Shown here: piece by piece, positions 9,925-20,215 of the stretch
How the letters are laid out: the number at the start of each line of letters is the position of its first letter
How positions within the stretch are numbered: the stretch's first letter is position 1
NCBI GenBank assembly: GCA_017525225.1
Contig: JAFXTB010000090.1
Location: forward strand, 1-54,499
DNA: 54,499 nucleotides
From: Kiritimatiellia bacterium
GTDB taxonomy: Bacteria > Verrucomicrobiota > Kiritimatiellia > RFP12 > UBA1067
Direction of reading: 5' to 3'
Position numbers and translations under genes: made by a program
Notes under the pieces: generated by a model
Seen by the model: only the letters and a program-made list of their open reading frames with translations
What the model was told of the DNA's origin: nothing
The model's database searches: none

Positions 9925-9952
9925 CAAAAGGCGCCTGCAATCACCGCAGGCG
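9925..9952 (-). terminator. Rho-independent terminator of the glycyl-radical-enzyme operon
   Basis: On the minus strand a 7-bp stem CGCCTGC/GCAGGCG (9946-9952 with 9932-9938) closes a 7-base loop and is followed by CCTTTTG. It overlaps the stop codon of the glycyl radical enzyme gene. It would separate that operon from yggS. Confidence 0.65.
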
Positions 9953-12319
9953 GTGGCGGGCTATCACCTCGTCCTGCCACCGCTTGGAAAGATGCGTGAA
10001 ACGCGCGGAAAAGCCACACACGCGGACTATCAAATACTGATAGCGTTCAGGATCCTTCTGGGCTTCAAGTAGTTGCTCCACCGATGTGCAGTTGGGCTGA
10101 ATCTCATGCGCCCCCTTCTTCGCATAGACGCGGAAAATGGAGGCGAATATCTCAGGCGTAACGGCAGACGGCTCAAACGTGAGGTTAGTATTGGACTGAT
10201 AGATCAATTCATGCGGCACGTGCCCTATCGCGTTTATAACCGATGTCGCCCCCTCCTTGCACCTGAACTCGCTCGGACTCATCCCCTGGGAAAGCCTGTC
10301 GCCGTTTCTGCGCCCGTCCGGAGTCGCCTTCATTTCATTGCCCCAATACATGAATTCGCGATAGACGTATACGTCCAGAACTATTGGTCCGCAATGCTCG
10401 CTTGACATCCCCTCGATGCCCTCGTACACGGATCGTACCGTCCAGGCAGCCAGCTCGTTCGATACCGGCGAGTTGTCGCCCCAATACGGTGCCGCCAGCA
10501 CAGCGTACCGGAGTCTTTCCCCTTCCGCGCCTTCCCAGTTGGAACGTACGGCCGCGAGGAGTTCCTTTAGCGTACATGTTCGATCCACGAAGCACAACTG
10601 CCGTATCGCCGCCAGCGAATCCACGAAACTCCCGAGAAAGGCCAGCGTATAGACCTTCGGACGAAACCGGACCCCTCCCTCGGTAGTGTCGCGGCGCGTC
10701 TCCACACCTCCATCTAGGCACATCGTGTAGACTGGATGAGGAAATACCTTTGCGCCAGTCGCGCCGTATCGTGTAGCGTAGCTTATCAAGGATCGGAAGA
10801 AGCGGACTATGTTCCGCATGACGATGGACTTAACCTCTTCGAAGCTACGAGCGTTGTCGATCATGTCTATAGTCACCTTCGCCGACTTCTCGAGTTCTAT
10901 GTCGCGATGTATGGTCATCTCGAGTAGCTTCATCAGCGAAACGTAGTTGCAGTCATCCACATCGGTAGCCGAATCTATGTATCCCTCCCAGCAACCTCCG
11001 CCCACATAGTCGCGCGCCTCGGCGATATCGAACCCATAGGCCAGTGAATTGGCGATGTGGCGATCATCGTTGAGCAGGGTGAACACGGAGTGTCCTTTGA
11101 TTATCATCGCACCAATCTTGCGAAGATAGTCCTCGGGCGATTTTGACGAGAACCGACAGAAGAGTTTCGGATATACGCAATCGCAACCGATGTGAGCGTC
11201 AAGGAACGCCTTGGTCAACTCGTTCCACACCAGCTTGCCGTCCGGATGGCACCCCCCGAGCGTCAGTTGGATCTCCACCTCCTGGTCATCATAACTGTCC
11301 ACTGGGACTGCTCCCGATTCATGGCAATCGGCGTATATGACGAATTTCGCGACAAGATCCCTCATTTCCGCCTCGGTTATGCGCCCGGCGGCCAAATCTG
11401 CGCGATAGAGGTCTATGCACCAAGCATCGGGATGTCCTAGCGCCTGGTTTAGGAGTCCATCCACATACCCCAGTACCTCGCGGATGAACCATAGTGCGTT
11501 GAGCCCCTCAAAGAACGTCTGCGGCGGCTCCCATGGGCAACGCCTAGCCGCCTCCGCGATGCGCATCATGTTCTTGCGCTGCGCCTCGTTCAAGCCGCCG
11601 GCGGCAAGCATGGCTTCGGCTTTTTTCGCGAAGGCCAGTTGCAATTCGTGCAGGGTGTCAAGCCCGACGATTGCGGTTTCTAGTTCCTTTCGACCGAGAT
11701 GGTCGTCCGCAGGACATTTCTCAAGGGCGGCGACCACATCGGCGCGCACACCCGCGAACCCTTTTTTGAAAATCGTCCTAAAAGGCGGCACGTGATGGGC
11801 ATTGTCTACAAAAGGTCCGCAGCACAGCGTCATGTGCGCCTTGGAACGCGCTTTCAACAGCGCAAAAGCCTCGTCGGGCACGAGCCCGCGTTCCTTGTAG
11901 AACTTGTAACATACGGCGAACACGGACAATCCCGGCCGGGCTCCGGACCATCCTCCGTTTATGCCACATTCGCAATAGAACGGAGAATCAGGAAAGAGAA
12001 TCGGGTAGAAATGCTTACGCATCAGCATGTAGCTTTCGCGCCGCGCATCAAGCGCGTCGGAATCTGGGTGCGCGTCCGACCATGCTATCATTGCACTACG
12101 AATCGTCTTGGCGCTCGCCACCTGCAGGGGATCTTGGCATTCTTTGCGGCAGTATCCAGGCGGGAAGAACGCCTTGAGGACCTTCCTAAAGTACTCGTAG
12201 TCCTTCGCCCGGAAAGGATTCTCGGTCCGTACCGATTCCGCGGACGCGGCGAGATCAACACCTGTGGCGGCGGAAAACGCCGCCGCAGAAGCCAGAAATC
12301 TCTTGCGGGTAAGTTCCAT
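9941..12319 (-). CDS. Glycyl radical enzyme (PFL-like) with an N-terminal Tat-like signal
   Basis: The 792-residue protein has the pyruvate-formate-lyase-like architecture of glycyl radical enzymes. The active-site loop GGGCWEG gives a candidate thiyl Cys443 and a Glu445 two residues on. The C-terminal radical loop RVCGFSARF places the radical Gly769 24 residues from the end, as in the family. The family abstracts hydrogen through a glycyl/thiyl radical made by an AdoMet activase. Neither substrate nor activase is visible here. Unusually, residues 1-28 (TRKRFLASAAAFSAATG and then an Ala-rich c-region) resemble a twin-arginine export signal, with RK in place of RR. It has a Shine-Dalgarno GGAGGA and is the last gene of its operon. 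Confidence 0.85.
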   Translation of the reverse strand: MELTRKRFLASAAAFSAATGVDLAASAESVRTENPFRAKDYEYFRKVLKAFFPPGYCRKECQDPLQVASAKTIRSAMIAWSDAHPDSDALDARRESYMLMRKHFYPILFPDSPFYCECGINGGWSGARPGLSVFAVCYKFYKERGLVPDEAFALLKARSKAHMTLCCGPFVDNAHHVPPFRTIFKKGFAGVRADVVAALEKCPADDHLGRKELETAIVGLDTLHELQLAFAKKAEAMLAAGGLNEAQRKNMMRIAEAARRCPWEPPQTFFEGLNALWFIREVLGYVDGLLNQALGHPDAWCIDLYRADLAAGRITEAEMRDLVAKFVIYADCHESGAVPVDSYDDQEVEIQLTLGGCHPDGKLVWNELTKAFLDAHIGCDCVYPKLFCRFSSKSPEDYLRKIGAMIIKGHSVFTLLNDDRHIANSLAYGFDIAEARDYVGGGCWEGYIDSATDVDDCNYVSLMKLLEMTIHRDIELEKSAKVTIDMIDNARSFEEVKSIVMRNIVRFFRSLISYATRYGATGAKVFPHPVYTMCLDGGVETRRDTTEGGVRFRPKVYTLAFLGSFVDSLAAIRQLCFVDRTCTLKELLAAVRSNWEGAEGERLRYAVLAAPYWGDNSPVSNELAAWTVRSVYEGIEGMSSEHCGPIVLDVYVYREFMYWGNEMKATPDGRRNGDRLSQGMSPSEFRCKEGATSVINAIGHVPHELIYQSNTNLTFEPSAVTPEIFASIFRVYAKKGAHEIQPNCTSVEQLLEAQKDPERYQYLIVRVCGFSARFTHLSKRWQDEVIARHRLR

Positions 12320-12347
12320 GATATTCGTCCTCCGTTGACATTCGGTT

Positions 12348-15300
12348 TCAACGCATGATTAAGCACAGGCCGCGGCGCGAAATCCTAAACGTGTTCCCTC
12401 TCCATTCAGCGGTCCATCGCGTAGAATCTAGGCCGATTACGGTAGGAGTGCCGGAAATGCCACTCTGGACGGTCAACAATACAACGCTTTTGCGATCGTC
12501 TGGTATGGCATCGCTGTTAAGTACTGCAAGCGTCGAGTTTTCCGGGAATACGAGGCTGGAAGGATACACGACCGGTTCGCCGGATGCAACGACCTTGGCG
12601 CAATCCACGCCCCACTTGCGAGGCGCGTTCGCGCCATCCACCATTGTCGTTCCGTTCATATCCAACCTACCACCCTCGAACATGACTGTAGACTCCTGCG
12701 GAATCGCGCCGTTAACGGCACACTTCAAGGTGCCACCCCTCAACACCGTATAGCCGGAATATAAGTTCTGCGCGTGCAGCGTGAGAATCCCCGAGCCCGC
12801 CTTGGTAAATCCACCGCCAATCTGGCTCACGCCTTCGGTCAAGGTAGCTGTGCACGTCACCGTGCTCGTCCTGTCTGCCGTCGCGATAGTGACGATTGGC
12901 GGCTCCGTGTAGTCCCAACCGGGACAGGTCACCTCGATACCCGTCACGCTCATGGTACGGGGATTGAAGATCGCATGGGCCGTCGCGCCGAGGCCGCCGC
13001 CGCCACTGATGCGAACTTCAGGAGCCCCAATGTACTTGCCATTTTCAAAGGTCGCCGGGAGCGCAATCGATGCGACGCCGCGTCCGCTCGAGCTTAGGAA
13101 CGGCGTTCCTACGTTTTGATGGCAGTTCTTTCCGTTGGTATCGAATGTCATGCCTTTTTCAAATATCGTAATACGGTCGATCGCCGTTGCGCCGCTACCG
13201 AAGAAATAAGGATCGGATGAGGAGGTCAGCACCACGGTGCCGCCGTTGAAGTTTACGAACGCATGGTTGTTCTGAGCGCACTGTGCAGGATCTGCCTCGC
13301 GTATAATCGAGCAGGTCTTGAAGACTCCCGCATTAAGGTTCAACACAGCGGTGAAATCTCCTTTACCCCTGCACATGGAGACGGAACCGTACTCTAACAG
13401 GGCAGTTGGATTGTTTGTCCCGCAAAGAGTCATCACGGCCTGTTGCGGTGTCGCGTCAGATCCGCCGCCAATGTATGTTCCATTCGGCATGTACAGAGTT
13501 CCGTCTGTCATGTGGTATTCCGCCCAGCCGCCATGCCGCCCCACGTACGCCTTGTATTCTGTTCCGAAATATCCTCCCCTCTGTTCAAATATGCCGGTGG
13601 AGTCTGAATAGTATCCGCAGGCAAACAGCGCCCTAAACTCGTAGTTACCGCCGTACAGGCCATAATACCCGTAACTCCCGTGTTCGCAACCGCAATAGGC
13701 GTCGTTGTTGTTGACGGCGCTGTTGAACACGTTCCCGCCGTACTGATACACAGCACCGCGCGAGTTGGTCGCTTCGCCTACATGGATTCTGTTGGTGATT
13801 GTCGCACCATCCTGGATTTCCAGCACCGCTCCTTGCGTGGCCGTCTCCTCCACATGCAGTCCGCCGCGTTGCGTCTGGCTTGACGGCGGCACCGTGGCCA
13901 GCATGACCGTGTTGCCCTTCACTACCATTCTGGCCGGCGTATCGCTCTCGATCCCTGTTCCGCCCACGCGCCAAAATGTCGTGGAGAGCGAATCGTCGCC
14001 GTCGCCCCCCATGAAAACACGTCCGGCACCATTAAAGGCCATCGTACCGCCTTTCACCTGTAGGCTTTTGACGAAGCGCTGTACTCCGCCGGTGATATTG
14101 AACACGCCTTCGAGGTTCACGAGCGATGTGGTACCGTCGTTCGGGAGACCTCCAGAGAAATCAAGCGTTCCCTCGCCGGCATGCGCGAAGACCGATCCGG
14201 CAAAGTCCTCTGAAACGACCGCATTAGTCCCTGCCCCCGTCCAGGCCGCCACGATTGCATTCGCGCCGGAAACGTTCACTTGCGGCGCGCCACTTACGAA
14301 TTCAGCGCCACTCCAAGCGTCCTCCGCGATCGGCAGAAACAATCGTCCGGCCCCAGCGACCGTAATTTTCTCGGGATGCGGGATACTTGCCATGAGCGTC
14401 TCGGCGTCGGTTATTGTCATGTTGCCGGAATATTCGTTGCCGGGATTGATGGAATGAAAACGCATGTTCGCGCCGGACACCGCTAAATCTGCAGTACCGA
14501 TGAGCTTTCCATCCAGACGGACAAATGCCACTGGATCCGTTATATCCTTGGTGGAAAGCACGGTGCCCGCCGCTATGTCAAGCGTCCCTTTTAGAAGATA
14601 GTCGACGGGAGTGATGCCATATGCGTTTATCTTGACCTGGTTCCCGTTGTATGTATTACACATCCTTATGTTCGCCGCAAAACCATTACCAGTGTCAAAG
14701 TCACACAACTTGAAGGTCGAAGCATCCAAAACAAGATTGACCGTCTCGTTCGCTTGAAACGTCGCGTCGTCTTGAAACATCAGCCCGTAGGTCCCTTGAT
14801 ACGCGGCAGTAGTCCCCCAATTGTATACCGTACCGCCACTTAGGAACGTAGCCCCAAAGAAAGAAAGGTCCACATATCCGCCGTCCCACCAGTTGCCTAC
14901 CGTCATGACGTGTCCCTTGAGGTCTATCGTCTTTATGCCGATCCTCGAATCAACGATGTGAACCATGGCATCATCGGCCAGTTCCAGATGCGCTATCCAG
15001 CCATCTTGCGAATACGATCCTCCTGCCGCAGTACCGTTTGGGCGAGCGATCAGCGCACCCTTCGTGTATCTGTCGCCCCCAACAGGCCCATTCCCAGAAA
15101 GTATCAGCCGCTTCGATATCTGCTCGAACGACTGCCCTTGGCGGGGCAAATGCGTGTAAAGCTGGGCATTGGCCGCGACGGTGATTGCACCATCCGTCAT
15201 ACGCGTGGCGGCAGTGGACTTGCCCAACGCGTAGCAGTGCGTAATTTTGATGACGCCTTCGTTGATGTCCACCGCCCCGGCAAAGGACGAATTGTCGCTT

Positions 15301-15512
15301 CCAATTATCAAAGTCCCCGCGCCGGTCTTGACAAGGCGCGTGACGTCGTTGCCAATCGCGGTGTTGTATGTAAACTCCGAACTGGGATCTACGTTTATCG
15401 TTAACACCGAACCGTTCATGGTCGCTCCGTCCGCTCCGAATACGCCGACGGGCGACAAGAATGCCGCCATCGCAAGAAGCGTTGCGGACACTGCTTTGCT
15501 GGTTTTACTCAT
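12348..15512 (-). CDS. Autotransporter-associated beta-strand repeat surface protein (no barrel)
   Basis: The 1054-residue protein has a signal peptide (residues 1-26). It carries beta-helix units of the PATR type, such as LVKTGAGTLIIGSDNSSFAG followed by VDINEGVIKIT near residue 65, and FTKAGSGILTLHAQNLYSG followed by LRGGTLKCAV near 945. Long Gly/Thr/Asn-rich beta segments lie between. There is no C-terminal autotransporter barrel; it ends in WRGNTFRISRRGLCLIMR. It is probably exported and displayed or released as a carbohydrate-binding scaffold, but the sorting route is unknown. AAGGAG precedes the ATG. It lies 33 bases after the GHL10-like gene and 28 bases before the glycyl radical enzyme gene. 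Confidence 0.8.
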   Translation of the reverse strand: MSKTSKAVSATLLAMAAFLSPVGVFGADGATMNGSVLTINVDPSSEFTYNTAIGNDVTRLVKTGAGTLIIGSDNSSFAGAVDINEGVIKITHCYALGKSTAATRMTDGAITVAANAQLYTHLPRQGQSFEQISKRLILSGNGPVGGDRYTKGALIARPNGTAAGGSYSQDGWIAHLELADDAMVHIVDSRIGIKTIDLKGHVMTVGNWWDGGYVDLSFFGATFLSGGTVYNWGTTAAYQGTYGLMFQDDATFQANETVNLVLDASTFKLCDFDTGNGFAANIRMCNTYNGNQVKINAYGITPVDYLLKGTLDIAAGTVLSTKDITDPVAFVRLDGKLIGTADLAVSGANMRFHSINPGNEYSGNMTITDAETLMASIPHPEKITVAGAGRLFLPIAEDAWSGAEFVSGAPQVNVSGANAIVAAWTGAGTNAVVSEDFAGSVFAHAGEGTLDFSGGLPNDGTTSLVNLEGVFNITGGVQRFVKSLQVKGGTMAFNGAGRVFMGGDGDDSLSTTFWRVGGTGIESDTPARMVVKGNTVMLATVPPSSQTQRGGLHVEETATQGAVLEIQDGATITNRIHVGEATNSRGAVYQYGGNVFNSAVNNNDAYCGCEHGSYGYYGLYGGNYEFRALFACGYYSDSTGIFEQRGGYFGTEYKAYVGRHGGWAEYHMTDGTLYMPNGTYIGGGSDATPQQAVMTLCGTNNPTALLEYGSVSMCRGKGDFTAVLNLNAGVFKTCSIIREADPAQCAQNNHAFVNFNGGTVVLTSSSDPYFFGSGATAIDRITIFEKGMTFDTNGKNCHQNVGTPFLSSSGRGVASIALPATFENGKYIGAPEVRISGGGGLGATAHAIFNPRTMSVTGIEVTCPGWDYTEPPIVTIATADRTSTVTCTATLTEGVSQIGGGFTKAGSGILTLHAQNLYSGYTVLRGGTLKCAVNGAIPQESTVMFEGGRLDMNGTTMVDGANAPRKWGVDCAKVVASGEPVVYPSSLVFPENSTLAVLNSDAIPDDRKSVVLLTVQSGISGTPTVIGLDSTRWTAEWRGNTFRISRRGLCLIMR

Positions 15513-15545: not shown

Positions 15546-17750
15546 CTATTCCGCCGTCAATCCCATGCGAAGCGCTGGCAATGCACAGACGGCCCTAAAT
15601 GAATAGTCGAAAATGTAGAACCCGTCTAGACCAAGTGCCCGGACCGCCTTTATCTGCTCAATGAGGTTCTCCTTATCATCCAAGGTGCTTTGCCAGCATG
15701 TTATACCTATGCCTGGACGCAACTTCGCCGTGGAATCCCTGAAGTATCCGAAATGCGACCGTACCAGTCCCTTGAAGGCAAAGTGATTGCTGATGTAATA
15801 GTCCATAGGACAGACAAAGTCGAGCAAACCCTCTCGGCACCACGCCCCCCAATCCTGGCCGACTCCATGCGGAGCCCCCTCGTTGGTGTGGAACACAGAG
15901 GCCGATATCCTCACACCCGGGCACTCGGAACGGACCCGTTTCGAGACGGTACGGACAAGCGCGGTGATGTTGTCACAACGAAACGCATCCCATTCCTTCT
16001 CGAGTCTCGGCGACTTCCGCACGTCTTCCGGCCAATTGTCGAGTTTTCGCCCGATACGTTTTTCAAACGCCGCGCGACAGCCCGAACAAAAGCACTGGTC
16101 CTTGTCCATGTAGCGGATGTAGTCTAGATGAATGCCCGTGGGGTTCAGATGCGCCAGACGTACGAACATCTCCGTCTCTGCAGCGAGATTCAACGGATCC
16201 GACGGACACATGAACATCGGCTCGCTCTTTCCTTTGAACGTGACAACAGTCCGGCCCTTGAAGCCCTTTGGAAATCCCTCGTGAGCCTCCCAGCATATCT
16301 TCCAGAGGTGACACTCAACATCGTACTTGCGACATGCCTCCATACACTTGTCGGGATTATGTTCCACATCCGCATACGCATAGTTTGGCAATACGCCGTT
16401 GAGGCCGTTGTCCTTGAGGAACCGAATAGCGTTGTCCCAACTGCCGAACGGCGAATTCCCCCTGTCTATGCGGGAACAGAACGACCATGTGCAACAGATG
16501 GCCCGCCATTCCCCCTTCTTCGCAGGTTGCGAGGCGAACCAGTTGGCCTGCCGCCGCTCTGAATCGCATGCGCGCCGCTCCGCATCCGCGAACCCGGTCT
16601 TCCATGCTGGATTCACATCGCCAAGAATCGCCCGCATCATGGCCCGCCCCGGACTACCGTATGTGCTCCAAGCGCCGCCGTAATGATATCCCCTGGCCGT
16701 CCTAACGAACGCAGGTACGGGCGACGGCTTATGATCGGCACCAGCCCAACGCCCGAGCACTTCACAACCATCTGTCTCGGCAAGTACGACCAATCCGTCC
16801 GCATCGTTGTCAGGAAAGAATTGCGGTTGCTCCGGCACGGAAAGCGCAGTACGGCAAAAACCGACGAAGGGGGGATTCTCTGGATGTTTTGCCGCAACGT
16901 AGTAATGGTCGCGCTTGACACCCAAGACCTCGTCCACCCCTTTGGCAAGCAAATAGCAAGCGAACACCTTGCCACCGTTCTCGCAGAATCTGCGCAACGC
17001 CGATACAGACTTGTCCGGTACATACGGATTGAACGGTAGCACAACCAGCTTCGCTCCTATCAACTGCTCGTCATCAAGGTCGTAATCAGGAACGGCGGAG
17101 GCCGTCACTCCGCAATCGCGGATTATCTTCGTCATGCCCTCCGTGAACTTGTGGAAGTTGACGGGATTCTCTCTTGGCATCTGCTTCATTGCGTAGTTCC
17201 CGCGCACCACCACAACTTCTGGATCCAAACCGTACGCTTCAAGGTTGGAAAGGAGAAACGAAGTGTCGTTGGTTCCGCCGCGCCACGCGGCGATGGTGAA
17301 GGACGACACCTTGTCCCATCCAGCAGGGTGGCCCTCGATGCGCCTCGCAAGCGATTTGTCGATGACAACGCGCTTCCACTCGCCAGACCTCCCTGGGACA
17401 AACGACGTGGAATAACACCCACCACCGCTACAGTTGAAGTACAAACTGAACGACGATACCGGCTCGTTGTCGCGGCTCATGAAGTCAAACGATATGCCAC
17501 TCATCCGCTTGAGATTGCAAGTCAAGGCCACATCCCATTTCACGCGGCTGTTTCTGTTGGTGGAAAACGGCGCGCCCAATTCTATGACACCAGCCGATAC
17601 AAGCTTCGGTTCTGGAGACCCTTCCTTGGGGAGAATCTGTTCAACATTCAGAGCCAGAGCGTCGGCGCGAGAAGAAAAAGACATCACCGACAGCAATGCT
17701 GTCAGCAGAATCCGTACAATATTGCCTGCAATTAGTGGTTCTCGGTACAT
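15546..17750 (-). CDS. Secreted GHL10/family-10-like glycosyl hydrolase with N-terminal accessory domains
   Basis: The 734-residue product has an N-terminal export segment (about residues 8-31). A CBM-like beta domain spans about 35-190 (DVALTCNLKRMSGISFDFMS). A ThuA/glutamine-amidotransferase-like middle spans about 190-390 (KLVVLPFNPYVPD, then FCENGGKVFACYL). The C-terminal TIM-barrel-like part carries the GHL10 motif GIHLDYIRYMDK and a nearby CFCSGC cluster. GHL10 proteins are putative glycoside hydrolases, mostly of unknown specificity. The start overlaps the preceding short gene by 19 bases, suggesting translational coupling; no clear Shine-Dalgarno is present. Confidence 0.75.
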   Translation of the reverse strand: MYREPLIAGNIVRILLTALLSVMSFSSRADALALNVEQILPKEGSPEPKLVSAGVIELGAPFSTNRNSRVKWDVALTCNLKRMSGISFDFMSRDNEPVSSFSLYFNCSGGGCYSTSFVPGRSGEWKRVVIDKSLARRIEGHPAGWDKVSSFTIAAWRGGTNDTSFLLSNLEAYGLDPEVVVVRGNYAMKQMPRENPVNFHKFTEGMTKIIRDCGVTASAVPDYDLDDEQLIGAKLVVLPFNPYVPDKSVSALRRFCENGGKVFACYLLAKGVDEVLGVKRDHYYVAAKHPENPPFVGFCRTALSVPEQPQFFPDNDADGLVVLAETDGCEVLGRWAGADHKPSPVPAFVRTARGYHYGGAWSTYGSPGRAMMRAILGDVNPAWKTGFADAERRACDSERRQANWFASQPAKKGEWRAICCTWSFCSRIDRGNSPFGSWDNAIRFLKDNGLNGVLPNYAYADVEHNPDKCMEACRKYDVECHLWKICWEAHEGFPKGFKGRTVVTFKGKSEPMFMCPSDPLNLAAETEMFVRLAHLNPTGIHLDYIRYMDKDQCFCSGCRAAFEKRIGRKLDNWPEDVRKSPRLEKEWDAFRCDNITALVRTVSKRVRSECPGVRISASVFHTNEGAPHGVGQDWGAWCREGLLDFVCPMDYYISNHFAFKGLVRSHFGYFRDSTAKLRPGIGITCWQSTLDDKENLIEQIKAVRALGLDGFYIFDYSFRAVCALPALRMGLTAE

Positions 17751-18052
17751 GATGATGCTCTCGCCAATGATCCGGCGACACTACCCGTATCAGCCGCTAT
17801 AGTCACAATTGCGCCTGCTGCAAATGTCATCGCATTGCCGGTGATGGACAGTGTCTCGCCTCCCGTGGGCTTTGCGACTATTCCAGTCACTTTGCCGTCT
17901 GCATCGCAGCTGACCTGAACCTTGCCACCGTATAGTGAAATTGTCTCATTCAATCCGCCTGACCATTCCCCTTCAGCCCAAAGTAGCGAAGGGACGATCA
18001 TCATTGAAAGAGCAACCATGGCATCACCCATGAAACTTTTATGAATATGCAT
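17732..18052 (-). CDS. Short secreted protein: truncated N-terminal beta-repeat domain
   Basis: The 106-residue product has a signal peptide (about 1-26, ending LLWA). It then has one domain with segments WSGGLNETISLYGGKVQV, GGETLSITGNAMTFAAGA and VTIAADTGSVAG, a pattern usually found at the start of long beta-strand repeat proteins. It stops after SLARASSCTENH, in a sequence unlike the rest, 19 bases inside the next gene. A frameshift or deletion of a longer gene seems likely. It could still act as the leader of the operon. AAAGGA lies 6-10 bases before the ATG. Confidence 0.6.
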   Translation of the reverse strand: MHIHKSFMGDAMVALSMMIVPSLLWAEGEWSGGLNETISLYGGKVQVSCDADGKVTGIVAKPTGGETLSITGNAMTFAAGAIVTIAADTGSVAGSLARASSCTENH

Positions 18053-18156: not shown

Positions 18157-18165
18157 CATGAAATA

Positions 18166-18174
18166 TGCTATACT
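18166..18174 (+). promoter_or_regulatory. Extended -10 promoter (TGC-TATACT), leaderless start of the XylR-type gene
   Basis: TGC-TATACT is followed by exactly eight bases and then ATG 18183. An earlier in-frame ATG at 18165 lies inside this promoter element, so it cannot be the start of the same transcript. Confidence 0.65.
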
Positions 18175-18182
18175 GTCTGCAC

Positions 18183-19319
18183 ATGAAAAAAGTATTGGTA
18201 TCCTTCTCGGCTAATTCAGTCGCCTCTCGCGAATTTCTGACCGGCGTGTTCAGCTATGTCAACGCCGACCATGCTTGGAACCTGCAGCTAGGCCCTGAAC
18301 CTTACTCACTCACGCCAGAATATCTTGCATCCACAGTGCGTGACGGCCTTGACGGCATCATTACCGGGATGAACAGGGTGACGGACGGGTACAAAGCGCT
18401 AATAAAGATCGATCTGCCGATAGCACTCAACAATTTTCCGCCGGAACTGCCGCCACGACGTCCAAACATAGCCGTACTGCACAATGATGAAACCGCCATC
18501 GGACGTGCCGCCGCGAAAATGCTGCGTTCGAAAGGACAGTTCCGTTCATACGGATTCGTGCCGAATCCCGAACGTTCCTATTGGTCTGTATTCCGTGAAC
18601 GCGGGTTTAGGCTGGAACTTGCAAGATGGCGACAGATTCCCCATACGTTCAGGCACGGGAAAATGGAACTCGGGGAATGGTTGAAATCACTTCCAAAGCC
18701 GATTGCCGTGTTCGCGGCATTTGATCTGTTGGCGGCACGGGTGATAGAGGCATGCAAGGGAAAACGGTTATGCGTACCGGAACAGGTCGCCGTTGTTGGC
18801 GTCGATAACGATGAAGTCATCTGCAACGCCATTCGTCCGACGCTCTCCAGCGTACGTCCAGATCATGTCGAACTGGCGCGGCGTGCCGCCGCAGAACTGG
18901 ACAAGATGATGCACGGTAAAAGGACGTCACCCCCCAGACCTATCTTCATTCCACCTTTGGGAGTAATCGAACGTGATTCCACACGAGCCGTTCCACCGGC
19001 AGGATTCCTCATCCGTGAAGGACTTGCATACATCAACGAGAATGCCGTAAAGGGCATCGGCGTCAAGGACGTCGCCAGGCATCTCAGGATATCCGAGAGC
19101 CTTGCAAGACTGCGATTCCGCACAATCCACGGACGATCCATCAAAGACATGATTCTCGATGCGCGCCTCGCAGAGATCAAGCGACAGCTTGAAAAGACCT
19201 CCGACACGCTCGTTCAAATTGCCGCCAAGACCGGCTTCTCGTCCGCCTGCAGGCTGTCGCACTTCTTCAAGACGCGCTGCGGCATTGCTCCGCAGACCTG
19301 GCGCATCACGCATATCTAA
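18183..19319 (+). CDS. XylR-type transcriptional regulator (LacI-like sensor plus AraC helix-turn-helix)
   Basis: The 378-residue protein begins MKKVLVSFSANSVASREFL. Residues 1-270 resemble the periplasmic-binding-protein-like effector domain of XylR/LacI regulators: DGIITGMNR, IAVLHNDETAIGRAA, VFAAFDLLAARVIEAC and VAVVGVDNDEVICN. Residues about 280-375 form an AraC double helix-turn-helix (VKDVARHLRISESLARLRF, then LVQIAAKTGFSSACRLSHFF and a GIAPQTWR end). It probably senses a sugar and activates the divergent operon at 9941-18052. No Shine-Dalgarno is present; the start is set by the adjacent promoter and predicts a leaderless mRNA. Confidence 0.85.
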   Translation: MKKVLVSFSANSVASREFLTGVFSYVNADHAWNLQLGPEPYSLTPEYLASTVRDGLDGIITGMNRVTDGYKALIKIDLPIALNNFPPELPPRRPNIAVLHNDETAIGRAAAKMLRSKGQFRSYGFVPNPERSYWSVFRERGFRLELARWRQIPHTFRHGKMELGEWLKSLPKPIAVFAAFDLLAARVIEACKGKRLCVPEQVAVVGVDNDEVICNAIRPTLSSVRPDHVELARRAAAELDKMMHGKRTSPPRPIFIPPLGVIERDSTRAVPPAGFLIREGLAYINENAVKGIGVKDVARHLRISESLARLRFRTIHGRSIKDMILDARLAEIKRQLEKTSDTLVQIAAKTGFSSACRLSHFFKTRCGIAPQTWRITHI

Positions 19320-19780: not shown

Positions 19781-20215
19781 ATGTACTACATCAAGGCAAT
19801 CATCGCAGCGGGCGCGATTCTGGCGTTCGTCGGCCCGGCCGCCGCCGATACCCGGCAGGAATTCCGCGATTCGATGGGGCGCTTCCAGGGTTCGGCGACC
19901 ACCGATTCGTACGGGCGCACGACATACCGCGATGCGCAGGGCCGTACGATAGGCACGGCAACCAAGGACTCGTACGGCCACGTCACCTTCCGGGACGCCC
20001 AGGGCCGTACCAAGGGCACCGCCACAAGCGACTCGTACGGTAGGACGATCTTCCGGGACGCGCAGGGCAGGACGCAGGGGACCTCGTCGGCCTCAAGCTA
20101 CGGCACCACCATCTACCGCGATGCACAAGGCAGGACGCAGGGGACGGCCCAAACCTCCAACGGCGCCATCATCTACCGCGATGCGCAAGGTCGGACGAAA
20201 GGAACGGTACGCTGA
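19781..20215 (+). CDS. Secreted protein made of 21-residue RDAQGRT repeats
   Basis: The 144-residue protein has a signal peptide (about 1-22, ending PAAAD). Six tandem units of about 21 residues follow, with consensus YRDAQGRTxGTAtxdSYGrt; the first is degenerate (RDSMGRFQG) and the last is cut short (RDAQGRTKGTVR). The units resemble YD-type or beta-hairpin repeats, but I cannot assign a named family. A strong AGGAGGG lies eight bases before the ATG. A -10-like TACATT at 19722-19727 could start a leader of about 47 bases with a small stem (CGGTCT/AGACCG). A hairpin follows the gene. It probably acts in the periplasm or envelope; the function is unknown. Confidence 0.75.
   Translation: MYYIKAIIAAGAILAFVGPAAADTRQEFRDSMGRFQGSATTDSYGRTTYRDAQGRTIGTATKDSYGHVTFRDAQGRTKGTATSDSYGRTIFRDAQGRTQGTSSASSYGTTIYRDAQGRTQGTAQTSNGAIIYRDAQGRTKGTVR

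Follow-up and report, generated by a model that had tools for sequence, protein, structure and literature searches.

The glycyl radical enzyme (GRE) gene described here, which lies in a 54,499-nucleotide stretch of DNA from a Kiritimatiellia bacterium (the window), probably encodes an active, exported enzyme, part of an extracytoplasmic GRE system that is shared across a family of rumen-type Kiritimatiellia and would operate by two routes. Our confidence in this reading is high for export, moderate for the route and low for the substrate. GREs and their radical-SAM activases are regarded as cytoplasmic, since their chemistry depends on SAM, low-potential electrons and the absence of oxygen. 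An earlier reading of the window, made from its letters alone (the sequence-only reading), had proposed that the enzyme is folded, activated and then exported by Tat. The system is confirmed by our sequence comparisons, with high confidence for export, and is larger than that reading claimed: GREs are predicted to act outside the cytoplasm, and so are activases when needed. The open-access literature (most subscription journals lie outside this scope) yielded no earlier account of export for a GRE or its activase, in agreement with the earlier statement that no characterised exported member was known. The gene and its features are the following.

9941..12319, minus strand: GRE, 792 aa; intact open reading frame with PF02901 and PF01228
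9998..10024, minus strand: glycyl radical loop RVCGFSARF, Gly769; from sequence and alignments
10982..11002, minus strand: active-site loop GGGCWEG, Cys443; from sequence and alignment
12239..12319, minus strand: residues 1-27 MELTRKRFLASAAAFSAATGVDLAASA forming a Tat-like signal peptide, which may be cleaved past ASA; from sequence, with the same signal class in paralogues and orthologues
12293..12310, minus strand: TRKRFL twin-arginine-like motif (RK); from sequence
12328..12333, minus strand: Shine-Dalgarno sequence GGAGGA, 8 nt before the ATG of the GRE gene; from sequence

The description of the protein as a complete-looking PFL-type enzyme holds. Both Pfam domains match, PFL-like PF02901 with an E-value of 2.9e-75 (254.6 bits, cut-off 24.3) and Gly_radical PF01228 with 4.4e-18 (66.2 bits, cut-off 22.2), the motifs are exactly placed, and Cys443 and Gly769 do not vary among 16 aligned relatives or in a 38-member alignment that includes GREs of other bacteria. 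Several features by which the superfamily is recognized are present: the two domains, the finger-loop Cys, the RVxG Gly near the C-terminus and the barrel fold. An AF2 model of the protein (pTM 0.84, with residues 1-170 poorly modelled) has HypD, glycerol dehydratase and CutC as its best Foldseek matches, with E-values down to 9e-40. The window GRE shares with CutC, HypD and the glycerol and propanediol dehydratases (GREs near TIGR01774) a common fold (TM about 0.77-0.80) and the same Cys and Gly machinery, and the Glu two residues past the Cys in its CWE motif resembles that in the GCVE of eliminases. The nearest solved sequence is CutC (6.7e-57). However, the window GRE is only about 20-23% identical to these enzymes and reaches none of the curated equivalog cut-offs (CutC, 217.6 of 1050 bits; HypD, 216.6 of 1100; TIGR01774, 236 of 678; the rest lower). 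Unlike them, it is predicted to be exported and has carbohydrate-related neighbours; to our knowledge, the GREs of the CutC, HypD and dehydratase type are cytoplasmic or reside in microcompartments. The active-site loop reads GCWE in the window GRE, GCWN or GCWD in close relatives, and GCYE or GCFE in the other clade, which suggests eliminase-type chemistry with an acid that varies among clades. PflD (8id0) and YbiW (8id7), which act on 1,5-anhydrohexitol-6-phosphates, are also among the Foldseek matches; they have the GRE fold, and both structures hold sugar-derived anhydrohexitol phosphates, but their ligand is phosphorylated and they are only about 20% identical to the window GRE. We know of no export signal on either enzyme.

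The protein begins MELTRKRFLASAAAFSAATGVDLAASAES, and its signal, MELTRKRFLASAAAFSAATG...ASA, combines an Ala-rich h-region with RK in place of RR, as had been noted before. Its start codon is firm: with GGAGGA at 8 nt, a stop just 14 codons above the ATG and no further ATG, GTG or TTG before codon 67, an artefact of start-site choice, against which the sequence-only reading had cautioned, is excluded. The curated Tat model TIGR01409 leaves the RK version of the window unmatched and recognizes the GRE of G043:C295 (20.6 bits, cut-off 16.7) and a paralogue in the window genome (G000:C29; 22.2 bits), which is 59% identical to the window GRE and carries a canonical RR signal, MTRRDFIGGSAALMGAAVAGQAAAQG. 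Several orthologues have RR as well. TatC is encoded in the window genome at G000:C21. A twin-arginine census of 1.06 Mb of family loci, with the pattern [STN]R?x[FLIVM] followed by a hydrophobic stretch, found R in the second motif position 21 times, K 14 times, L 3 times and no other residue. GREs or activases account for 13 of the 14 RK cases, and the other Tat-like proteins divide into 10 RR and 1 RK, an enrichment with a Fisher p of 0.02 that is uncorrected for relatedness. Because lysine recurs in this way, and because a single Arg-to-Lys change merely slows Tat in most bacteria (PMC6708511), RK is probably accepted as a Tat motif in the family f1 (115 genomes). A review lists a single native KR Tat cargo (PMC6708511). 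Speculatively, RK may even be preferred for slow-maturing cargo.

The genes next to that of the GRE were recorded as follows.

12348..15512, minus strand: PATR/autotransporter-type beta-repeat protein with Sec-like signal MSKTSKAVSATLLAMAAFLSPVGVFGADG, upstream of the GRE; PF12951 2e-11, TIGR02601 1.2e-11
15546..17750, minus strand: GHL10-like glycoside hydrolase with Sec-like signal; PF02638 3e-7
17732..18052, minus strand: 106-aa protein with hydrophobic N-terminus and no family, first gene of the run
18165..19319, plus strand: divergent regulator with Peripla_BP_3 and AraC-type HTH domains; PF13377 2.7e-27, PF12833 2.7e-15

The GRE, beta-repeat and GHL10-like genes share a strand and are separated by about 28 and 33 nt, consistent with the operon proposed earlier, and the GRE gene is the last of a run predicted to encode exported proteins.

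Export of the window GRE is strongly supported, far more by its relatives than by the gene alone, and the strongest sequence evidence that a GRE moiety would act outside the cytoplasm, on or near carbohydrate, comes from four GREs joined in frame to carbohydrate domains behind Sec signals (GH16, GH5, PF06439 and one GH-like). In the first (G102:C136; L269 5922-9551), the Sec signal MKNLISVAFAGLLAGGASA is followed by a GH16 domain (9.6e-17, with the catalytic motif GEIDVLEF), an Ala/Gly-rich linker and a complete GRE (4.7e-74, with GCWNG and RVCGFSARF), and the next gene encodes a Tat-activase. The second (G050:C37; L254 4821-8162) consists of a Sec signal, a GH5 domain (5.3e-20) and a GRE broken by a run of N. 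The remaining two, both from G055, join PF06439 (L356 3058-4794) and a GH-like region without a Pfam match (L352 2544-6605) to GREs behind Sec-like signals and extend to the contig ends, so that contig ends or N runs truncate three of the four fusions.

Signals were called with a rule-based script, applied equally to all sets, and by inspection by eye. The Tat rule called for R[RK]x[hydrophobic] and, behind it, a hydrophobic stretch free of charges, and the Sec rule for a charged n-region, a hydrophobic core and small residues for cleavage. The 4.2-Mb window genome (G000) contains eight GREs; besides the Tat-like window GRE and that of C29, that of C158 and three tandem ones of C170 have Sec-like signals, and those of C157 and C89 have none. 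In the clade around G000:C170c, the N-termini are just short, uncharged and hydrophobic. In L055, the gene upstream of three tandem Sec-signal GREs (858-2303) encodes a metallophosphatase-like protein whose N-terminus, MEMDLSRKEFICGAALAAAGS, is Tat-like with RK. Across f1, where the sequence-only reading had called for a search for orthologues sharing the signal, these rules assign a Tat or Sec signal to 68 of the 90 related GREs (59 of 90 when only the best-scored start is allowed), and the same rules find export signals in none of 11 GREs from sister families and none of 57 from other bacteria. Of the 28 genomes with Tat signals, 27 encode TatC, and the remaining one is 63% complete. The GRE tree, in which some automatic classes were fixed by eye (for example, G001:C78 from Tat to Sec), requires 12 switches between Tat and Sec.

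Orthologues without a signal, which had been named as evidence against export, do exist in the sister families f4 and f6. They are, however, nested within several different exported clades, and the activases there are signal-less too, so that the absence of signals reads as coordinated loss rather than artefact. Since GRE and activase are both signal-less in these families, location appears to change as a unit, as expected if it is a property of the pathway, and it looks as if the pathway had moved back to the cytoplasm in a coordinated way. In G036, G038, G040 and G029 (f4, f6), several clades have no signal on any of their GREs, and the activase lacks one too.

These data also bear on the reading that the proteins are cytoplasmic and that their N-termini arose by chance or from mis-set starts. 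In its favour are the sister-family orthologues that begin right at the core without a signal, the RK motif of the window protein, and the fact that the choice of an upstream ATG in metagenome-assembled genomes (MAGs) is a prediction. We nevertheless regard it as very improbable: ribosome sites are firm, 4-nt overlaps between GRE and activase genes fix the start codons in G001:C32, G001:C190, G021 and G093, the control sets are empty under identical rules, fusions carry GREs behind Sec signals and GH domains, and partner enzymes gain and lose signals in step. Hardly credible is the suggestion that the N-terminal helix is a peptide targeting the enzyme to a bacterial microcompartment. GREs are classic microcompartment cargo, some with N-terminal extensions, but the shell protein family PF00936 is absent from the window genome under a search that matched the E. 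coli control, and the RR/RK motifs, h-regions and AxA sites, together with the fusions to secreted GH domains, argue against such targeting.

The proposed search for an activase elsewhere in the window genome yielded two, G000:C22, which begins ...MTRKEFIASSTAFAVAPMLSAAG and has a Tat-like RK signal, and one at C89 without a signal, either of which may serve the window GRE; C22 is the only one of the exported-orthologue type. In G001:C32, a radical-SAM activase that begins MNITRRAFAGAAAAFAAAGHGMAEG directly follows a Sec-signal GRE, with an overlap of 4 nt. Orthologous activases are 65-78% identical to it and differ mainly by the presence or absence of a signal ahead of the common core KTPLMLDTKRMAxHDGPG. 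Tat signals are present on 16 of the 31 orthologous f1 activases, eight with RR and eight with RK, and on none of about 60 activases of other lineages. The activases share with the TIGR02494 GRE-activating proteins, whose family cut-off they exceed, the CxxxCxxC core, GPG(I/L/M)RT and SGGEP, and differ from the known proteins of this type in the RR or RK Tat signal. Individual GRE activases whose Tat signals contain RR or RK were recorded at L049 8109-8978, L057 1463-2299, L022 634-1473, L089 1480-2316, L108 4816-5646 and L135 3000-3830. This activase type occurs in 33 of the 346 genomes of the class, all in f1, f4 and f6. A scan of genome contigs with the GRE alone gave no match, and the activase alignment yielded two true orthologues and a large outgroup. 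One G048 contig is identical to a contig of Kiritimatiellae bacterium RGIG6996 from sheep rumen, and G056 shares sequence with the MAG RUG572, titled uncultured Lentisphaerae bacterium; we take the family to belong to Kiritimatiellia.

If the signals are real, the radical chemistry might still have been lost, leaving the exported GREs as binding or structural proteins that keep the fold. No source of SAM or electrons is recognized outside the cytoplasm, and a PATR-type surface protein adjoins the window GRE, both of which would suit such a role. We consider it quite unlikely, for the Cys and Gly motifs have been kept through many signal swaps: both are intact in 70 of the 75 3′-complete family GREs, and of the other five, four contain frame breaks or N runs and one lacks only the Gly pattern used. 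Moreover, the activases are kept with CxxxCxxC and SGGEP and are themselves predicted to be exported, and they would otherwise be useless.

When each activase was paired with the nearest GRE on its contig, 14 pairs combined a Tat-GRE with a signal-less activase, 8 combined a Sec-GRE with a Tat-activase (9 with G076, whose GRE signal is weak), 2 combined a signal-less GRE with a Tat-activase (G128:C14 and G079:C42), and none of the nearest pairs had two Tat signals. This complementarity has a Fisher exact p of 3e-6, computed on raw counts and inflated by related genomes. The activase tree provides five independent contrasts, two of them supported; both supported ones go in the expected direction, and a sign test on them is underpowered. 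Both pair types occur within each of the genera g2, g5 and g14. The strict rule that a genome with Sec-GREs always has an exported activase was rejected: it fails in G050, G052, G058 and G059, which hold Sec-type GREs and in which all activases found lack signals, and in G050 the GH5-GRE fusion and a signal-less activase share one locus. The complementarity is therefore claimed for nearest pairs only. The window genome itself has a Tat-like activase (C22) alongside the Tat-like window GRE.

In known GREs, the activase charges the folded enzyme, using SAM and one electron. Tat moves folded proteins and Sec unfolded ones (PMC6708511). The two signal types would therefore correspond to two routes. 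By the first, the GRE would fold, a cytoplasmic activase would charge the glycyl radical, and Tat would export the finished enzyme; by the second, the GRE would leave unfolded through Sec and be charged outside by a folded [4Fe-4S] activase exported by Tat. Since Sec delivers unfolded chains and the adjacent activase bears a Tat signal, activation outside would be implied for pairs of the second kind. For the window GRE, with its Tat-like RK signal, the first route would be the simplest; however, as the only activase of the right type in its genome (C22) is itself Tat-like, activation may take place in the cytoplasm or outside it. The earlier proposal of a GRE folded, activated and then exported by Tat thus survives as regards export and fits the window GRE and the 14 pairs of a Tat-GRE with a signal-less activase, but it does not describe the sole route of the family, which also includes Sec-GREs with Tat-activases. 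If true, the two-route reading raises the questions of how SAM and electrons would reach a radical-SAM enzyme outside the cytoplasm, whether Tat carries a protein already holding a radical, and which radical reaction on carbohydrate merits export. One possible answer to the first would be an activase exported pre-loaded and firing once.

The same pairs could also arise if a GRE and its activase travelled as a complex, in which one Tat signal on either partner carries both. The nearest pairs are never doubly Tat, and the two with a signal-less GRE and a Tat-activase fit this idea directly; hydrogenases and formate dehydrogenases are established cases of cargo partners hitchhiking on Tat (PMC10924467). 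Most GREs beside Tat-activases, however, have a Sec signal of their own, for which a folded complex would have no use, and such co-transport is unlikely also because known systems require the activase in catalytic, not stoichiometric, amounts. Under the preferred two-route reading, as with the Tat-exported hydrogenases, formate dehydrogenase and TorA, the cargo would be folded and cofactor-bearing, and some of those enzymes do travel by hitchhiking (PMC10924467, PMC6708511); their cofactors are metals, in contrast to the protein radical of a GRE. No protein-radical enzyme or radical-SAM activase was found as Tat cargo in the open-access literature.

Genes near exported GREs include those for GH2, GH3, GH5, GH20, GH28, GH92, GH127, SASA and glucuronyl esterases, FGE-like proteins and transporters. 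In scans of the neighbouring genes, no one partner recurred from which a substrate could be named. Given the carbohydrate enzymes among these neighbours, our working guess is that the substrate is carbohydrate-related. Tentatively, the exported GRE would, once outside, cleave a C-O or C-X bond by eliminase-type radical chemistry in a sugar or polyol freed by the co-exported carbohydrate enzymes. A bolder proposal, which we regard as possible but doubtful, is that full glycyl-radical chemistry, radical-SAM activation included, takes place outside the cytoplasm, and that the exported GREs, a few of which are joined to GH16 or GH5, give anaerobic gut bacteria an oxygen-free radical arm of carbohydrate breakdown, with a role like that of lytic monooxygenases in aerobes or in the removal of recalcitrant sugar substituents. 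Lytic polysaccharide monooxygenases likewise place secreted radical chemistry beside glycoside hydrolases, but they would be a functional parallel only, if this speculation holds: they depend on copper and on oxygen or peroxide, their fold is unrelated to that of GREs, and action of a GRE on a polymer is speculative. Rumen fibre degradation may, on this proposal, include an oxygen-independent radical step.

Of the FGE-like genes, several of the FGE-sulfatase-like type (sulfatase-modifying factor) adjoin exported GREs. In both genomes of the genus, small secreted repeat proteins (YRDAQGRTxGTATxDSYG-like) are encoded close to GRE genes, at positions 19781-20215 of the window and 2868-3311 of L049.
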